59,174 nucleotides of DNA from Planctomycetia bacterium (GTDB lineage: Bacteria; Planctomycetota; Planctomycetia; Pirellulales; UBA1268). A program made the translations under genes and the position numbers. The notes under the pieces are model-generated. The model had not been told where the DNA came from and searched no databases. It saw only the letters and a program-made list of their open reading frames with translations. The DNA is taken from contig BJHK01000019.1 in the NCBI GenBank assembly GCA_014192425.1, positions 9,983 to 69,156 of the forward strand, written 5' to 3'. Shown piece by piece: positions 37,401-59,174 of this stretch (position 1 is the first letter of the stretch; each line of letters begins with the position of its first letter).

Positions 37401-39818
37401 GGAGGCCGCACGCTGCTTGGCGACGCGTTCCGTGGTCCCAACACCGACATCGCTCCGCTGCTGGCGGCACATGCCTTTGGCTGCACGGTGAAGGGGGCGG
37501 GCGTTTCGTCTGCCATCGAGCGACTGCTGCTCTCGGCCAACTGCTTCTCGAATCATGAAGCCCTCACTCGGCTGATCGGGCAGGTGAAAGCCGGCTGGGG
37601 ATCGTGGCGAGCGTTTTGTGAGGCGATGACAGGCTTTGGCGAGTTCTCGCCGGAGCAGTGGGTTGCCAGCGAGGGATTGAAGACGTCGGAGTTTGCCAAA
37701 GCCCTCCGCGCACGAGCATCGCTGGCGGTTAGTCGCATCTCGGAACTGCTCCCCTGGGCCCAATACGCCGTCGCCAGGGCCAGGGCGCACGAGCTGGCGC
37801 TCAATCGCTTCGTAGACGCGCTCGAGCGACACGGCCTGCCGCCGGATCAGATCGCCAATGCGTTTGCGTATCGCTTTTATGCGAGCATCGCGAAAACCAT
37901 CTTCCAGTCATCGGACACGTTTTCGCAGTTCAGTTCCGACCGGCACAACGCGACGCGCCGGGAGTTCGCCGCCCTCGACAAGAAGGTCGTCCAACTCCGC
38001 GGCCAACACATCGCCAACGCGTGCATCGGCAGAGCCGTCACGCTGCCCGGCACCAACAGCACCCGCGTGAATGAGAAGACCGAAATGCGGCTGCTGCAGC
38101 ACCTCTTCCCGCAGCAGCAACCGCGAGTGCCCGTCAGGCAGATTCTGGAACGGGCGGGCCGCTCCATCCAGGAGTTGATGCCCTGCTTCATGATGGGCCC
38201 GCAGGCCGTCGCCCAGTTTCTGAAGCCCGGCTCCATGACATTCGACATCGTCGTCATGGACGAGGCCTCGCAGCTGCCGCCCGCCCAGGCCATCGGTGCC
38301 ATCGCCCGGGGCAAACAGCTGGTCGTCGTGGGTGACCCCAAACAGCTCCCCCCGACGTCGTTCTTCACCAATATGGCGACGCGTGCAGATGGCCTTGCGG
38401 TCACGGATGCCGAGAGCATTCTCGACATCTGCATGTCGCAATTTCATCCGACGCGGCAGCTCCGCTGGCATTATCGCTCGCAGCACCATTCCCTGATCGC
38501 GTTCTCGAACCAGAAGTTCTACGACGGAAAACTGATCGTCTTCCCGTCGCCGCACGAGAAGAGCCGGTCCCTGGGCGTCTCATACCACTACGTCGAAGAC
38601 GGCATCTACCAGGATCAGACGAACAAGGTCGAGGCAAAACGCGTGGTAGACGCGGCCGTCGAGCACATCCTGACGAGACCGGACGACTCGCTCGGGATCG
38701 TGACGCTCAACATCAAGCAGCGCGATCTCCTCGCCGACATGCTGGAAGACCGCCTGCGGACGCTCCCCGAGGCGCAAGCCTTTCGCGAGCGCTGGGCGCA
38801 AGATGGCATGGGCTTATTCGTCAAGAATCTGGAAACGGTCCAGGGCGATGAGCGTGACCGCATCCTGATTTCGACCAGCTTTGGGAAGGCCCCGGGCACT
38901 GCCGTCGTCCGGCAGAACTTCCATCCCATCGGCCTGCCGGGCGGCTGGCGGCGGCTCAACGTGTTGTTCACCCGGGCTCGGAAGGCGATCGGGGTCTACA
39001 GCTCGTTGCGGCCGGAGGACATCGTTTCCGACGTCGCTACGCCTGTGGGCACTCGTGCCCTACGAAGCTATCTGGAGTTCGCCAGGGACGGTGTGATCAC
39101 GCAGCAACAGCACACTGACCGCGCCCCGGACAGCGACTTCGAGGTGGCGGTGATCGACGTGCTTCGCCGAAAGGGCTACGAGGTCACGCCGCAACTCGGC
39201 GTGGCCGGCTTCCGCATCGACATCGCCGTGAAGCATCCGCACACCCCTGCCGGCTATCTTGCGGCTATCGAATGCGACGGGGCGACCTATCACTCCGGGG
39301 TCTCGGTTCGCGACCGCGACCGCATCCGGCAGGAGATTCTGGAGAGCCTTGGATGGAAGGATCGGATCTGGCGGATTTGGTCCACCGACTGGTTCCGAAA
39401 CCCAGAGGGCGAGGCCGAGCGACTTTTTGAATGGCTAAAACACCTCGCCAGCCAGCCATTGCCCGGGGACGCACCGCCAGCCCAGACCGCCGCGGCCGAA
39501 TCGCTGCCGGAAGCTCTCCCCGGGCTGGCGAGCGACGACAGCGCGACGGCCAGCCAAGGCTTTCTGTTTGACAGCGACGAGGATGATCTGGCCATCAAGC
39601 CGGGCGACACCGTGACCATCTGCCGCACCGACAATCCGCAGAAGAAGCTGCGCATCAAGCTGACCGACGACGTTTCCGACTTGGGAAAGGGTCTTGTGAG
39701 CGTCAACGACGACTTCGGCGCGGCACTCATCGACGCCATGATTGGCGAGCACGTCGTTGTTCGTTCGGCCGGAAAGGTTCCGCAGACGTACATGGTCAAA
39801 GAGATCAACCGCTCTTAG
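34437..39818 (+). CDS. DUF4011 helicase with Vsr-like endonuclease and GreA/GreB-like C-terminal domain
   Basis: This 1793-aa multidomain defence protein is predicted to unwind and cut foreign DNA. The DUF4011 N-terminus has LLDLTGRNRLLNF (~22). The SF1 helicase is split: Walker A EGPPGTGKSQT at ~341, then a ~900-residue insert, then VVMDEASQLPPAQAI (~1272), VVGDPKQLPPTSFF (~1297) and LNVLFTRARKAIGV (~1505). The REase_MTES_1575/Vsr-like nuclease has GFRIDIAVK (~1590) and AAIECDG (~1609). The last ~75 residues (GDTVTICRTDNPQKKLRIKL, then GLVSVNDDFGAALIDAMIGE) match the C-terminal fold of GreA/GreB. This architecture resembles the DUF4011-helicase-Vsr proteins reported from defence islands (Hhe type, as I recall). 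An Mrr-like pseudogene starts 17 bp after the stop. Confidence 0.88.
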   Translation: MATDTGDIAPLLEALEKLRNSLLDLTGRNRLLNFKHTPAKSIQFVHSDIDATFNALVANGTRVPLLALPEPPESEHVEVAGRIRRPDNGKFAESRGISGSYDLDMPSPAADPPPQAARLQTLLYADQLGSHGRKLDREARLAIEETGSNMLHLVVGFLEYTDRPGGEALWLAPLLSIPVAIERTEGMPFPKFHITPTGEELAANLSLREKLLKDYGAFDMPEYDSESDETASDYLTRVAEAVKDIPRWRVRRMMTLTLLSFSNMLLLRELEPERWPDNTLETHPLVQQLLGGETDRDGGGYAEEYPIDDHPRRDLPLVYDADSSQHSALIDVLDGHSRVIEGPPGTGKSQTITNLIAAAISEGKKVLFVAEKLAALEVVKSRLARAGLGHFVLELHSTKSNKKEFLAHLAARDAMRATAVAELNDALRQKERRHTELRAYADAMKSVLSNAMGLTVHEVLWRGERRRLALGEYAALVQELDYFSATGMDATAFEDAMSRLEQLGKHFSRIGSYGPAHPLWGFHPTTLRPEDDYRIQQLLNDHAAKCEAFDRALTELQSLFSTTPTAITLPESRADRLLAALSGLKPPPGVAPAAASLPRLFSAEDPAGVGSKRILDELHRGISELNAAESACAKYLVGADIAATADLAQADEIRAQVTQLGIGELTADALDRLGDVLDRETARLQQAVRLFAKTADSIGMNFWFDAEAGRRVFRLVDLASQASGELLAFRHEGLERPHAAAQLEAITAERQRLQTERERLEQTLYLDDVLPEADITAAIRVLREGDAWYRFLQPRWRNAIRLHQRLSREKSRRSAAERQADLESLSKLTRDEAAWANDTILRAVAGPHYAGEQTPLERLLAAARWSASIHALSDEIGVPVSRLTERATLQALARERAPLQQAAGEIRVAQEKILESLRGIESQPTDQQGTSGLERLHNRAISTAKACRSAAAILKRHCREGTPAKAGVDAVLAGSSLHRQKDALASNAGGRTLLGDAFRGPNTDIAPLLAAHAFGCTVKGAGVSSAIERLLLSANCFSNHEALTRLIGQVKAGWGSWRAFCEAMTGFGEFSPEQWVASEGLKTSEFAKALRARASLAVSRISELLPWAQYAVARARAHELALNRFVDALERHGLPPDQIANAFAYRFYASIAKTIFQSSDTFSQFSSDRHNATRREFAALDKKVVQLRGQHIANACIGRAVTLPGTNSTRVNEKTEMRLLQHLFPQQQPRVPVRQILERAGRSIQELMPCFMMGPQAVAQFLKPGSMTFDIVVMDEASQLPPAQAIGAIARGKQLVVVGDPKQLPPTSFFTNMATRADGLAVTDAESILDICMSQFHPTRQLRWHYRSQHHSLIAFSNQKFYDGKLIVFPSPHEKSRSLGVSYHYVEDGIYQDQTNKVEAKRVVDAAVEHILTRPDDSLGIVTLNIKQRDLLADMLEDRLRTLPEAQAFRERWAQDGMGLFVKNLETVQGDERDRILISTSFGKAPGTAVVRQNFHPIGLPGGWRRLNVLFTRARKAIGVYSSLRPEDIVSDVATPVGTRALRSYLEFARDGVITQQQHTDRAPDSDFEVAVIDVLRRKGYEVTPQLGVAGFRIDIAVKHPHTPAGYLAAIECDGATYHSGVSVRDRDRIRQEILESLGWKDRIWRIWSTDWFRNPEGEAERLFEWLKHLASQPLPGDAPPAQTAAAESLPEALPGLASDDSATASQGFLFDSDEDDLAIKPGDTVTICRTDNPQKKLRIKLTDDVSDLGKGLVSVNDDFGAALIDAMIGEHVVVRSAGKVPQTYMVKEINRS

Positions 39819-41149: not shown

Positions 41150-41180
41150 CCAGTCGGGGCGACAGGACTTGAACCTGCGA
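41150..41180. repeat. 31-bp direct repeat, copy within the tRNA-Pro gene
   Basis: This is the original copy of the repeat also seen at 40507-40537. It runs from 4 bases beyond the tRNA 3' end into the T-arm. Together the two bracket the DUF4160/DUF2442 genes (643-bp period). Confidence 0.85.
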
Positions 41181-41228
41181 CCTCTTGACCCCCAGTCAAG
41201 CGCGCTAGCCAGACTGCGCCACGCCCCG
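41154..41228 (-). tRNA. tRNA-Pro (GGG)
   Basis: On the minus strand the 75-base gene starts CGGGGCGTGGCGCAGTCTGG and ends GTCGCCCCGA. The acceptor stem is CGGGGCG/CGCCCCG with discriminator A. The anticodon stem CTTGA/TCAAG encloses the loop CTGGGGG with anticodon GGG. The T-arm is GCAGGTTCAAGTCCTGT. No CCA is encoded. The gene forms the boundary between the defence island (left) and conserved chromosomal genes (right). Confidence 0.95.
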
Positions 41229-50353: not shown

Positions 50354-50379
50354 CGCATCACGCACCGCGCCCTACCTGT

Positions 50380-50412
50380 CCGTGGAGAAAGCCAACCTTC
50401 GTCTTTTTCCAC
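50380..50412. terminator. Possible bidirectional terminator hairpin
   Basis: CGTGGAGAAAG and CTTTTTCCACG pair with one mismatch around an 11-base loop, with T/A-rich arms. It lies between the stops of two convergent genes (DUF4143 and surE), which is the usual place for a shared terminator. No long U-tract follows, so this is tentative. Confidence 0.4.
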
Positions 50413-50452
50413 GTGGTCGACCGCAGGAAACGCCGCGGGATTCCTGCACCTG

Positions 50453-51148
50453 CTACACCAGCCCCAGCCGCGACACCGTGATCGCGCCGCCGAAGCACAG
50501 GGCCACGTCCCCCTGTGCCATCCGCGGCCGCTCGTGGTAGTTCGCCGCATACCGCCAGCCCTCGTCCGTCATCCGGTAGCCGAGCGCGAATGGCGACGCA
50601 TCGACCGGGCACTCGACGATCGGCGGCGGCCCCATGCCCTCCGGCGGGTCGGGGAGGTTCACATTCCAGAGCGATCCGGCGGCAGGTGCCTCTCCCCCCA
50701 GTGGCAACGTTGAAAACACCAACTCCAGCCAGGTCGCGGCCCGCTCCCAGTCGATATCGCCCCCCGACCGCCGGTAATGCGAGGCTGCCACGGCGATCCG
50801 CCCGTGGAGCGCGGCCTCGCGGGCCGCGGCCACCGTCCCCGAATGGTGGATGTCGGCGCCGAGGTTGCCGCCGGCGTTGATCCCGGAGAGCACGAGCGTC
50901 GCGTCGGGCGCGAGTTCCGCCAGCGCGATCCGCACGCAGTCGGCCGGCGTGCCGGTCACGGCGAACCGGCCCGGGCCGGCCGGAATCACCCGCAGCGGCC
51001 GGTCGGTGGTGACCCGATGCCCGCAGCCGGAATGCGGGTCCACCGGGGCCACCACCACGCACGCGCGGCCAAGCCGGGCCGCCGCGACCGCCAGCGCCTC
51101 GAGGCCCGGCGCGTCGATGCCGTCGTCGTTGGTCAACAGGATCCGCAC
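50453..51148 (-). CDS. surE: 5'/3'-nucleotidase SurE
   Basis: This 231-aa phosphatase acts on nucleoside monophosphates and short polyphosphate. It starts at a GTG ([20 protein letters not shown]), giving the typical SurE beginning with metal-binding NDDG. GTPADCVRIAL (~92), LVLSGINAGGNLGADIHHSG (~105) and VAAAREAALHGRIAVAAS follow. The GTG at 51148 lies within the end of the purine nucleoside phosphorylase gene, which overlaps it by 16 bp, so the two are coupled in one nucleotide-salvage operon. Confidence 0.93.
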   Translation of the reverse strand: MRILLTNDDGIDAPGLEALAVAAARLGRACVVVAPVDPHSGCGHRVTTDRPLRVIPAGPGRFAVTGTPADCVRIALAELAPDATLVLSGINAGGNLGADIHHSGTVAAAREAALHGRIAVAASHYRRSGGDIDWERAATWLELVFSTLPLGGEAPAAGSLWNVNLPDPPEGMGPPPIVECPVDASPFALGYRMTDEGWRYAANYHERPRMAQGDVALCFGGAITVSRLGLV

Positions 51149-56406: not shown

Positions 56407-58034
56407 CGTCCCCCGCCAGCGCGCACCCGTGGATCACCCGCCGGTTCTTCACGGCCTCGGGCTGCCTCGTCGCGGAGACGGCCGCCGACGTGACGCCCGA
56501 CGTGGTGTTTCAGCGTCTCGCCGCGCTGCCCCACCTGCTGTTCCTCGACAGCGCCCAGCCCGACGCCGCGACGCCTGCATCAGCCGCCGCGGTGGCACCC
56601 GGCGCAACTGGCCGGCCGGCCGCCCCGCGGCTCGACCGCTGGTCGTTCGTGGCGGCCGACCCGATCCATTCGCTACGGATCGACGCCGCCGCCGCGCCGG
56701 CGGAAGACGCCACCCGACTGTCCGGCGCGTTCGCAACGCTCCGCGGGCTGCTCGCCGACTTCGCCTGCCCGACGATCCCGGGCCTGCCGCCGTTCCAGGG
56801 AGGCGTGGCCGGGTTCATCTCCTACGAGTGCGGCCTCGTCCGGCTCGGCATCCCCGCGCCGGCCGGCAGCCAGGTGCCGCGGCTCTCGCTCCATGCCTAC
56901 GACGTGGTCTTCGCCTACGACCACGACCTGCGGCGCGGCTGGTTCATCTCGCAGGGCGTGCCCGCCCGCGGCCCGGTGGCACGGCGTGGCCGGGCTGCGG
57001 AACGCCTCGCCGTCATGCTCGCCGCGGCGGATGCGCGAGGCGACTTCCCGCCGCCACCGCGCGGCGCCGCGTCCACCACCCCGGCCGTGCTGCCGGCGGC
57101 GTTCGCCCATCCGCTGCCCTCGCGGCCTGGCGTGTTCGCCACCCACACGCCGGCCTCCTACCGCGACATGGTCCGGTCCGGCATCGACTTCGTCCGCGCC
57201 GGCGACATGTTCCAGGTCAACCTCGCCCAGCACTTTTCCCTCGCGGTCGACGTCGATCCGGTCACCCTGCACCTGGCCGCGCGGCGCACCAATCCTGCCC
57301 CGTTCGCCGCCTGCTTCGACCTCGGCGACGCGGCGATCGTGAGCATGTCGCCGGAGCGGTTCCTGCAGGTGTCGCGCGGCGTGGTGCGGATGCACCCGAT
57401 CAAGGGCACGCGCCGGATCGTGTCGCTCCCCGAGGCCGACCTGTTCGCGGGGGACGACCTCGAGGCGAGCGGCAAGGACCGGGCCGAGAACGTCATGATC
57501 GTCGATCTGATCCGCAACGACCTGGCCCGCGTCTGCACCGCGGAAAGCGTCCGCGTCGAGGCCCTCTGCCGGCTGGAGCGCTACCGCTACGTGCAGCACC
57601 TCGTGTCGATCGTGGCCGGCCGGCTCGCCCCGGGCTGCGGCCCGCTGGATGCGATCGAGGCGGCGATCCCCGGCGGCAGCGTGACCGGGGCCCCGAAGCA
57701 CCGCGCCTGCGAGATCATCGACGCGCTCGAGCCCGTCGCCCGCGGCGTCTACTGCGGCTCGCTGGGCTACATCGGCTTCGACGGCACGGCCGACTTCAAC
57801 CTCCTGATCCGCACGTTCGTGGTCGGGCCGGGGACGATCAGTTTCGCGGCCGGGGGCGGGATCACGGCGGCGAGCGATCCGGCCGCGGAACATGCCGAGT
57901 CGCTCCACAAGGCGGAGGGCCTGCTGCGCGTGCTCGACGCCGTCGGCCTCGGCGGCCACGCCGCGCCGCTGCCGGCCGCCACGGCCGACGGCCTGCCCGA
58001 CGCTCCCTCGCCGCCGCGCGAGGCCACGTCATGA
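56403..58034 (+). CDS. pabB: Aminodeoxychorismate synthase component I
   Basis: This 543-aa chorismate-utilising enzyme makes 4-amino-4-deoxychorismate for p-aminobenzoate, using ammonia from PabA. Domains: Anth_synt_I N-terminal (~30-170; GGVAGFISYECGLVRLG) and the chorismate-binding C-terminal (~240-500). Key motifs: IDFVRAGDMFQVNLAQHFSL (~262), PERFLQVSRG, IKGTRRI (~335), DRAENVMIVDLIRNDLARVC (~360) and the end IPGGSVTGAPKHRACEII (~423). A TrpE role is possible, but the position with PabA and methanopterin genes favours PabB. It overlaps the gene before by 4 bp and the gene after by 4 bp. Confidence 0.9.
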   Translation: MTSPASAHPWITRRFFTASGCLVAETAADVTPDVVFQRLAALPHLLFLDSAQPDAATPASAAAVAPGATGRPAAPRLDRWSFVAADPIHSLRIDAAAAPAEDATRLSGAFATLRGLLADFACPTIPGLPPFQGGVAGFISYECGLVRLGIPAPAGSQVPRLSLHAYDVVFAYDHDLRRGWFISQGVPARGPVARRGRAAERLAVMLAAADARGDFPPPPRGAASTTPAVLPAAFAHPLPSRPGVFATHTPASYRDMVRSGIDFVRAGDMFQVNLAQHFSLAVDVDPVTLHLAARRTNPAPFAACFDLGDAAIVSMSPERFLQVSRGVVRMHPIKGTRRIVSLPEADLFAGDDLEASGKDRAENVMIVDLIRNDLARVCTAESVRVEALCRLERYRYVQHLVSIVAGRLAPGCGPLDAIEAAIPGGSVTGAPKHRACEIIDALEPVARGVYCGSLGYIGFDGTADFNLLIRTFVVGPGTISFAAGGGITAASDPAAEHAESLHKAEGLLRVLDAVGLGGHAAPLPAATADGLPDAPSPPREATS

Positions 58035-58711
58035 TCGTCGTGCTCGACAACCGCGACAGTTTTGTTTTCAACCTGGCCCGCTATTTCCGGCTTCTCGGCG
58101 TGGAGACGGCGGTGCTGCCGAGCCATGCCACGAGCGTCGCCGACCTGCATCGGATGGCTCCGCAGGCGCTCGTGATCTCACCCGGCCCGTGCACGCCGGC
58201 GGAGGCGGGCTGCTCGGTGGAGGCGGTGCGGGCGTTTCGCGGCCTGGTGCCCATGCTCGGCGTGTGCCTCGGGCACCAGGCGATCGCGGCGGCGCTCGGC
58301 GGCAGCGTGGTCGTGGCCGCGGAGCCGGTGCATGGCCGCACGAGCCCGGTCCACCACGACGCCGTGAACCTGTTCGCGGGGATTCCCAGTCCGCTCACCG
58401 CCTGCCGCTATCACTCTCTCGTGGTCGCCGCCGAACCGCTTCCGGACGGCCTCGAGGTGACGGCCCGGGACGACCGAGGGACGATCATGGCCATCGCCGA
58501 CGAGCGGCGTGGGGTCTACGGCGTCCAGTTTCACCCGGAGTCGATCCTCACCCGGCACGGCTTCCGGCTGCTGGCGAATTTCCTGGAGCGGGCCGGCGTG
58601 CCGCACCACGGCCACCGTGCGGCCCTGCTCGACGAGGACGTCGCCCGGCAGGCGGAGGGACCAGCCGGCGACGACACGCTCGCGGCTCCGCCGAAGATCG
58701 TGACGTTTTGA
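58031..58711 (+). CDS. pabA: Aminodeoxychorismate synthase component II (glutamine amidotransferase)
   Basis: This 226-aa class I glutamine amidotransferase feeds ammonia to PabB. It starts MIVVLDNRDSFVFNLARYFR. It shows SPGPCTPAEAG (~50), the nucleophile elbow MLGVCLGHQAIAAALGG (~77, Cys) and YGVQFHPESILT (~163), which provides the catalytic His and Glu. The last ~30 residues are an unusual Ala/Asp-rich extension. The ATG overlaps the pabB stop. The two genes together with the DHPS-like gene form an operon that supplies p-aminobenzoate. Confidence 0.93.
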   Translation: MIVVLDNRDSFVFNLARYFRLLGVETAVLPSHATSVADLHRMAPQALVISPGPCTPAEAGCSVEAVRAFRGLVPMLGVCLGHQAIAAALGGSVVVAAEPVHGRTSPVHHDAVNLFAGIPSPLTACRYHSLVVAAEPLPDGLEVTARDDRGTIMAIADERRGVYGVQFHPESILTRHGFRLLANFLERAGVPHHGHRAALLDEDVARQAEGPAGDDTLAAPPKIVTF

Positions 58712-58950
58712 CGGCCGGGCAGGCCGACTGCCATGCGCGGCCACCGACCACGGCCTGCCCACTCGCGCGGCAGCCAATGCACGCATTCCGCGCGGTTCTG
58801 TCGCGACGGGCCCGGGATGCCAAAATGTTTTTGTTTCCCGACCGGCTTGGAAAACCACGTCTTCCTCGGGAATTTTCCCGGTTCAGGGAGTGACGACGAA
58901 CTGGACTGTGCGGGGCATCTCATGTCCGGCACGCACTTTGCATTTCTCAT
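58712..58950. other. Region after pabA, no gene seen
   Basis: No convincing coding sequence or RNA motif is visible here. Frames on the opposite strand lack any recognisable domain. A terminator for the pab operon is expected but not clear. Confidence 0.4.
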
Positions 58951-59156
58951 CTTCTGGAAGGTCGCGGTGATGATCGCGACCCCGCAACAAGCCAGAAGGG
59001 TGCTCCGTGGCTTGGGCGAGCGATCCGCCTTCGCTCGCCCAAGCCCGGACATCTGGCTTGAGCGCTTCGGCGGCCATCCTGGCCCGCCGAAGCTTGTCGG
59101 CCGATGCAAACGCCGAGGGTTTGCATGGCCGACTGGACGCCGCATCGTGCGGCGTC
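58951..59156. ncRNA. Chain of strong hairpins, candidate structured RNA or mobile-element end
   Basis: Five consecutive stem-loops fill about 205 bases. (1) An outer stem CTTCTGG/CCAGAAG (58951-58957, 58992-58998) encloses an inner stem GGTCGCG/CGCGACC (58960-58981). (2) GCTTGGGCGAGCG/CGCTCGCCCAAGC at 59010-59044. (3) GCTTCGGCGG/CCGCCGAAGC at 59064-59093. (4) GTCGGCCGATGCAAAC/GTTTGCATGGCCGAC at 59096-59133, with one bulged base. (5) GACGCCGCA/TGCGGCGTC at 59136-59156. I know no family with exactly this layout. It could be transcribed after pabA, be independent, or be a DNA hairpin array. The strand is unknown, and the element may run beyond the window end. Confidence 0.5.
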
Positions 59157-59174
59157 TCGGGTTCTCGCCCAACT

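Follow-up and report, generated by a model that had tools for sequence, protein, structure and literature searches.

A composite hairpin array at a contig end

What is the chain of hairpins that occupies positions 58951-59156 of this planctomycete DNA? The window (the whole 59,174-nucleotide stretch analysed, G000:C19:9983-69156; the features delimited in it are all on the + strand) has the contig end as its right edge, and the array lies close to this edge, downstream of a gene for a pabA/trpG-type glutamine amidotransferase (58031..58711; TIGR00566, 202.6 bits over its cut-off; PF00117). A sequence-only reading had described a single array of five consecutive hairpins, paired beyond chance, without a gene and without a match to any RNA class that could be named, and had proposed as its role a non-coding RNA, a transcription or processing site, or the ends of a hairpin-based mobile element.

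A base-by-base check of the arms bears out the stems. H1 (58951..58998) is a nested hairpin, in which an exact outer stem (58951-58957/58992-58998) encloses an inner stem with 7/8 pairs (58960-58967/58974-58981). The inner stem of H2 (59009-59023/59031-59045, 15/15 pairs) is surrounded by an outer stem (58988-58996/59052-59060, 9/9 pairs). H3 consists of 10/10 pairs (59064-59073/59084-59093), H4 of two successive stems (59096-59102/59127-59133, 7/7; 59104-59111/59119-59126, 8/8), and H5 of 9/9 pairs (59136-59144/59148-59156). Because 58992-58998 (H1, right arm) overlaps 58988-58996 (H2, outer arm on the left), the outer stems of H1 and H2 are mutually exclusive.

Short inverted repeats are common throughout this stretch, and the pairing nevertheless exceeds chance, as had been claimed: the region 58900-59174 folds at -164.6 kcal/mol vs -115.2 +/- 4.9 for 200 dinucleotide shuffles (z -10.2, no shuffle as low; z -8.2 for the opposite strand), and the 206-nt array itself folds at -139.1 vs a mean of -81.0 (sd 14.9) for 148 stretches of the same window, none of which is as low. 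The absence of a gene and of a nameable RNA class also held up. No gene was called from 58712 to the window end; the frame 58733-59173 is open, and was rejected as a coding sequence given that the copies of the array hairpins found elsewhere vary by indels and are mostly intergenic. At Rfam gathering scores, the only match in the window is a tRNA at 41154-41228, and lenient scores yield no convincing match near the array. The array is real and strongly structured but composite: H2 is one of a family of hairpins that follow amt genes, H3-H5 are part of a mobile element, and no relative was found for H1, so that neither one array of five hairpins nor a single five-hairpin RNA describes it, H2 and H3-H5 having separate relatives at different places.

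A dispersed three-hairpin element in one planctomycete genus

The three distal hairpins match R1, a covariance model built from ten other copies that were aligned without the window, at 73.5 bits for 59064-59156. In the R1 alignment, H3 corresponds to HA of the element (59064..59093, with the apex CCATCC-TGG and its bulged C), H4 to HB (59096..59133, loop GCCGAGG), and H5 to HC (59136..59156, apex GCATCGTGC). Judged by this match, H3-H5 represents a dispersed element of three hairpins, in a diverged copy. The copy spans 59053..59174; its 5' limit (CTGG at 59053-59056), drawn by analogy, shares bases with the outer arm of H2, and its 3' end is lost at the contig end, so that its terminal repeats are out of view. 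The complete element is about 122 bp long plus a 4-bp CTAG and contains the hairpins HA, HB and HC, with the apices CCATCC-TGG (bulged C), GCC(G/A)AGG and GCATC(C/G)TGC, respectively; in the main subfamily, the ends are imperfect inverted repeats (CTGTCCGTGGAA / CAGACTGTGGAA).

A plain DNA search matched parts of 59096-59154 at ten other places in the same genome, with 77-85% identity. Within the window, there is a second, decayed copy at 50373..50508 (R1, 39.2 bits, E 3.1e-9), in which HA and HB, but not HC, can be made out by eye, and a third R1 match at 38198-38348 (18.8 bits) that we take as doubtful. In the whole genome, R1 has 57 matches at E <= 0.01, a count that also takes in tandem copies and places matched on both strands; at least one match, L105 inside a gene (26.9 bits), is probably false.

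The spread of the element is narrow. R1 matches were found in 26/40 genomes searched, namely, all 22 examined members of the genus (own genome included), all three other members of the family (one at E 0.0015), and one of 15 other genomes of the order (E 5.6e-5). Under stricter filters, a phylum-wide draw gave matches in 2/392 genomes, the own one and a weak one (E 7.5e-6). The core pattern is present exactly in one named record, a MAG labelled uncultured Planctomycetaceae bacterium, and the viral contigs and plasmids searched contained no match. A literature search that covered few subscription journals returned no description of this family.

Several variants were observed alongside. Four tandem arrays in the own genome (L106, L104, L095 and L093, on C11, C15, C1 and C6) have periods of about 105, 97, 140 and 96 nt, respectively, each with its own arm sequences. 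In G019, an internally deleted element of about 60 bp retains both ends (L233, G019:C14:7751-7812). The sequence CGAGCGGGCTGTGGAA, seen in the same genome at L248 and L250 (C24, C35) and at four places in all, including C133 and C147, is not the element; a long related tail follows it at the two places read.

Filled sites, empty sites and a probable target duplication

The element is mobile, and its insertion can be traced in two genes. In G019, a transposase gene with rve domains, which we take to be of the IS3 type, contains a copy that adds 42 codons in frame between FTREC and LAIDV; the same gene is uninterrupted in four other species (G012, G014, G009, G011). At the filled site, the copy is flanked on either side by CTAG; the empty sites each have a single 4-mer at this point (CTGG, CTTG, CTCG and CTGG). 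In G016, a copy lies in frame in a gene of the amine-oxidase family (PF01593) that is uninterrupted in the four relatives aligned, the own genome among them; here, the flanking 4-mers are not identical. A 4-bp target duplication is favoured for the G019 site, short of being absolute as the empty sites come from other species, and insertion of the copy beside a fixed CTAG, without duplication, is less likely. Across all copies, the flanking 4-mers agree in 25/134 vs 10.5 expected, with related copies treated as independent; with CTAG-left copies removed, they agree in 5/95 vs 2.0, with 176 matching letters vs 149.

Some copies are inherited rather than newly inserted, since G005, G017 and G021 share an orthologous site with matching flanks (L053, L054 and L056). 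A small gene precedes this site, and in two of the species this gene itself lies after another conserved one; the copy there would be useful for dating.

Stop codons, orientation and reading frames

After removal of 15 overlapping or duplicate entries, 149 matches gave 134 copies and, with one per locus, 115 sites; the copies were drawn non-randomly, from best-match lists, and genes were called with a simple codon model. The upstream gene is on the same strand as the element at 81 sites and on the opposite strand at 21, and between co-directional genes there are 32 sense and 10 antisense copies (p 0.0009). At 38/115 sites, the 5' end of the element is located at a same-strand stop codon, exactly so at 34, compared with nine sites where the 3' end is at an opposing stop (p 2.5e-5). 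The 34 exact stops comprise 27 TAG, 4 TAA and 3 TGA codons, vs 7 TAG, 2 TAA and 27 TGA among the 36 stops of the window's own genes; CTAG targeting accounts for this excess of TAG. The orientation bias, in contrast, is left unexplained by simple CTAG targeting.

Eleven of the 115 sites overlap a called gene. Two of these are the verified in-frame insertions, the element also occurs within a Y2-type transposase gene (L167), and some of the remainder are probably gene-calling artefacts. Exactly 126 nt is the length of 63/100 length-filtered copies, and in 82 copies with recognisable ends the frame that starts from CTA is open in 70% in the sense and 73% in the antisense direction vs about 30% in shuffles. 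Because the copies share ancestry, the open frame is a property of the family consensus and does not imply selection.

The preferred explanation links these observations. A putative transposase inserts the element into CTAG-like sites, and many of the surviving copies coincide exactly with a stop codon because TAG can be in frame only as a stop; a few copies persist in frame within genes, where they add 42 stop-free codons, as seen in the two verified cases.

Compensatory change in the hairpin arms

The arm sequences differ between subfamilies yet pair, and the apical loops are constant. Among 36 diverse copies (34 distinct), 92.0% of the cells are paired, 268 cells are changed on both sides vs 78.3 in shuffles, and 39/43 pairs show a double change; double changes are far commoner than one-sided ones, and when the structure is slid along the alignment, only 35-43% of the cells pair. 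This alignment was fitted to the structure and so leans towards pairing; in an unfitted alignment of ten close copies, 5/43 pairs have double changes. In the window copy, which was outside the training set of R1, 8/10 lower pairs of HA have both bases changed relative to the consensus, with pairing kept throughout. Very strong compensation in homologues, the absence of which the sequence-only reading had named in advance as grounds for doubt, is therefore present. Given that the arms have been swapped for other pairing sequences around constant apical loops, we infer that pairing matters.

At what level it matters is suggested by the mismatches. Among distinct stems, GT and AC mismatches are similarly frequent (31 vs 27 overall, 14 vs 9 in HA, 17 vs 18 in HB), so that an RNA read from one particular strand is not favoured. 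The stems counted were chosen by loop motifs and a minimum number of paired positions, with decayed copies left out (HA was obtained from 94/134 copies, HB from 119/134), and a few of the chosen HA stems are visibly misplaced (e.g., L030 under HB, and one L032 copy). Pairing is thus more likely to matter in DNA or during replication than in one RNA strand.

Compensation could also have arisen without selection. Template-switch replication errors can make one arm of a palindrome serve as template for the other, and imperfect palindromes repaired in this manner would have arms that drift together. The large surplus of double over one-sided changes and the balance of GT and AC mismatches are what such a process would produce, and we consider it a serious possibility, though short of probable: it leaves unexplained how fixed apical loops come to cap wholly different arms.

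H1, H2 and the amt connection

H2, the long hairpin (58988..59060), was delineated by DNA matches, alignment A5 and model R2. In a DNA search, 58992-59052 is 79-85% identical to hairpins on contig C3 of the own genome and in G007, G001, G010, G009 and G003, and in those read together with their genes (own C3, G007, G001, G009 and G003) the hairpin follows an ammonium-transporter-like gene, the amt identity of which was confirmed for the own and the G001 genes (TIGR00836, above cut-off). A scan of the own genome with R2 gives strong matches at just two places, on C3 and in the window; the other hits are the reverse strands of these two and a single one at E 0.96. By homology, H2 is a paralogue of the amt-following hairpin. 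Its stem resembles in this respect an intrinsic terminator of amt; the window copy differs in following a promoter motif instead of amt and in lacking a T-run, its 3' flank reading GGACATCTGGC where L186, L187, L181 and L224 read GGGGCATTTT.

The motif in question, of the sigma54 type (58927..58941, GGCACG-CACT-TTGC, with GG and GC 10 bases apart), was identified by a motif scan. It ends about 10 bases before H1, and the start predicted about 12 bases past it falls at H1. Similar motifs occur in G001, in the interval from pabA to amt (order pabA, amt, hairpin), and on C3 of the own genome, ahead of amt; the spacing in G007 equals that in G001, judged by position, and sigma54-like motifs were read by eye in G007 and G013. 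In the likeliest history, an amt gene was formerly situated between pabA and H2, as in two relatives, and has been lost here, leaving the predicted promoter and terminator behind. That the H1-H2 region is such a remnant of an amt locus has, in our view, roughly even chances; it is the weakest step of the analysis and is based on two relatives and on the motifs.

Other repeats were noticed at related loci. Downstream of amt on the own C3 there are two copies of another hairpin repeat (GCGTCGGGCGGAGCCCGACGCCGGAGCCGGGCTCCGCCCGGC; L014), and in G015, a tandem repeat with GCGTAACGCCGTAAGGCGTACGGCC palindromes, a different family, directly follows pabA (L171). In G006, the mobile element itself lies directly at the pabA stop (L185), at another place than the window copy and from another subfamily.

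Alternatively, the array could be a structured RNA, that is, a nitrogen-regulated leader or small RNA driven by sigma54, in which H1 and H2 compete like an attenuator and a mobile copy has been recruited. The position of the sigma54-type motif 10 bases before H1, the mutual exclusion of the H1 and H2 outer arms, the relatives of H2 after amt genes, several with T-runs, and the sense bias of the element all point in this direction. Against it, no relative of H1 was found, H2 has no T-run, Rfam is silent near the array, and the stem mismatches show no excess of GT over AC, a result that bears on H3-H4 only. We consider this reading rather doubtful for the array as a whole. Of the roles proposed from the sequence, a hairpin-based mobile element stands for H3-H5, and one related to transcription is plausible for H1-H2.

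The mobiliser and the remaining alternatives

Two transposase families, Y1 (PF01797) and PF13340, were searched for in the 22 genus genomes. Y1 genes were detected in 6/22 genomes and PF13340 in 4/22, the own genome not among the latter; no element was found within the loci fetched around either, and the occurrence of neither family follows the copy number of the element. A search for the end pattern in the own genome gave 14 matches, all at R1 places, and revealed no related insertion sequence. In G019, 12 of 30 end-pattern loci were inspected and contained elements, half copies and internally deleted copies; none was an autonomous insertion sequence.

It is conceivable, if unlikely, that these elements form a class of small mobile DNA, new in that the transposition or replication machinery recognises folded hairpins rather than linear ends. 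The fixed loops would then serve as the address and the arms would be replaceable as long as pairing is kept; a unit whose length is divisible by three, with several frames open, could be carried inside proteins.

We judge it less likely still that the element is a repeat of the REP or TIR type and that its mobiliser is a Y1 (HUH) tyrosine transposase, which would read folded single-stranded DNA hairpins beside a fixed tetranucleotide and make no target duplication. The hairpin architecture, fixed loops and strand-biased orientation would fit, and the available part of PMC3733652 describes many such transposases in R. baltica and GTAG-REPs whose TAG is likewise the stop of flanking ORFs. Nevertheless, the left tag reads CTAG far more often than GTAG (39 vs 3 of 134 copies), left and right 4-mers agree even outside CTAG, which favours duplication, and the few Y1 genes have no element in the loci fetched. 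The own Y1 (IS200-like) gene (L189, G000:C4, 1138-1944) has separate, exact 29-base inverted repeats (AAAAGGTGCCAGCC...). This arrangement of gene and repeats resembles the TIRYT/TIRtron arrangement as outlined in the portion of PMC3733652 consulted.

Chance palindromes in GC-rich DNA, where short inverted repeats are common and H1 alone could be fortuitous, can be dismissed for H2-H5, given the z of -10.2, the lowest energy among the sampled stretches, and the homologous compensating structures elsewhere.

Relation to known elements and implications

We return to the preferred explanation: very probably, the array combines a copy of a non-autonomous, MITE-like element (H3-H5) with an amt-type hairpin (H2) behind a sigma54-type motif. 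Under the definition of MITEs that we take from an excerpt of PMC10969869, these are short, non-autonomous elements with many dispersed copies and stable stem-loops, bounded by inverted ends and a brief target duplication, some of them in genes, and the planctomycete element is alike in all these respects. It is well below 500 bp (63/100 length-filtered copies are 126 nt) and has no transposase gene inside, the main subfamily carries imperfect terminal inverted repeats (CTGTCCGTGGAA / CAGACTGTGGAA), and the G019 site shows CTAG twice vs one CTNG in the four empty sites of other species. It differs in having three separate hairpins whose loops are fixed and whose arms are exchanged, and in being GC-rich rather than AT-rich, with no parent insertion sequence found.

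The Rickettsia palindromic elements, as summarised in the same excerpt (PMC10969869), are palindromic, about 100-150 bp long, and inserted in frame, with an open frame, in unrelated genes, as is the case here for two verified insertions. The likeness is one of description: here, the host is a planctomycete genus, most copies are at stops or intergenic, and the elements end in CTAG, in contrast to the CGTC ends given for R. conorii in the part of PMC3733652 used. That text also portrays GTAG-REPs and TIR repeats with their RAYT/TIRYT as hairpins whose TAG is often the stop of a neighbour and some of which lie within ORFs, as here; REPs are, however, 20-40 bp long with one GTAG tag, compared with about 126 bp, CTAG on both sides, GTAG as left tag in 3/134 copies, and no Y1 gene near (6/22 genomes, with no element in the fetched loci). 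The mitochondrial repetitive hairpin elements of sponges and Allomyces are, in the section of PMC2800124 seen, likewise mobile hairpin units within related species; they are organellar, no target duplications are reported there for those of Allomyces, and we claim no homology. The closest kinds are MITEs and, for the in-frame habit, the Rickettsia palindromic elements, and the mobile part of the array is a new MITE-like family with the unusual combination of free arms and fixed loops.

Small palindromic elements that keep their structure and lose their sequence easily escape similarity searches. Here, a single such family is traceable in 22 species, some of whose genomes contain dozens of copies, and it offers both empty sites and in-frame insertions. 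The purpose of the structure, be it transposase recognition, transcription termination or a mutational by-product, thereby becomes testable. In-frame palindromic insertion, best known from Rickettsia, is now shown in planctomycetes.
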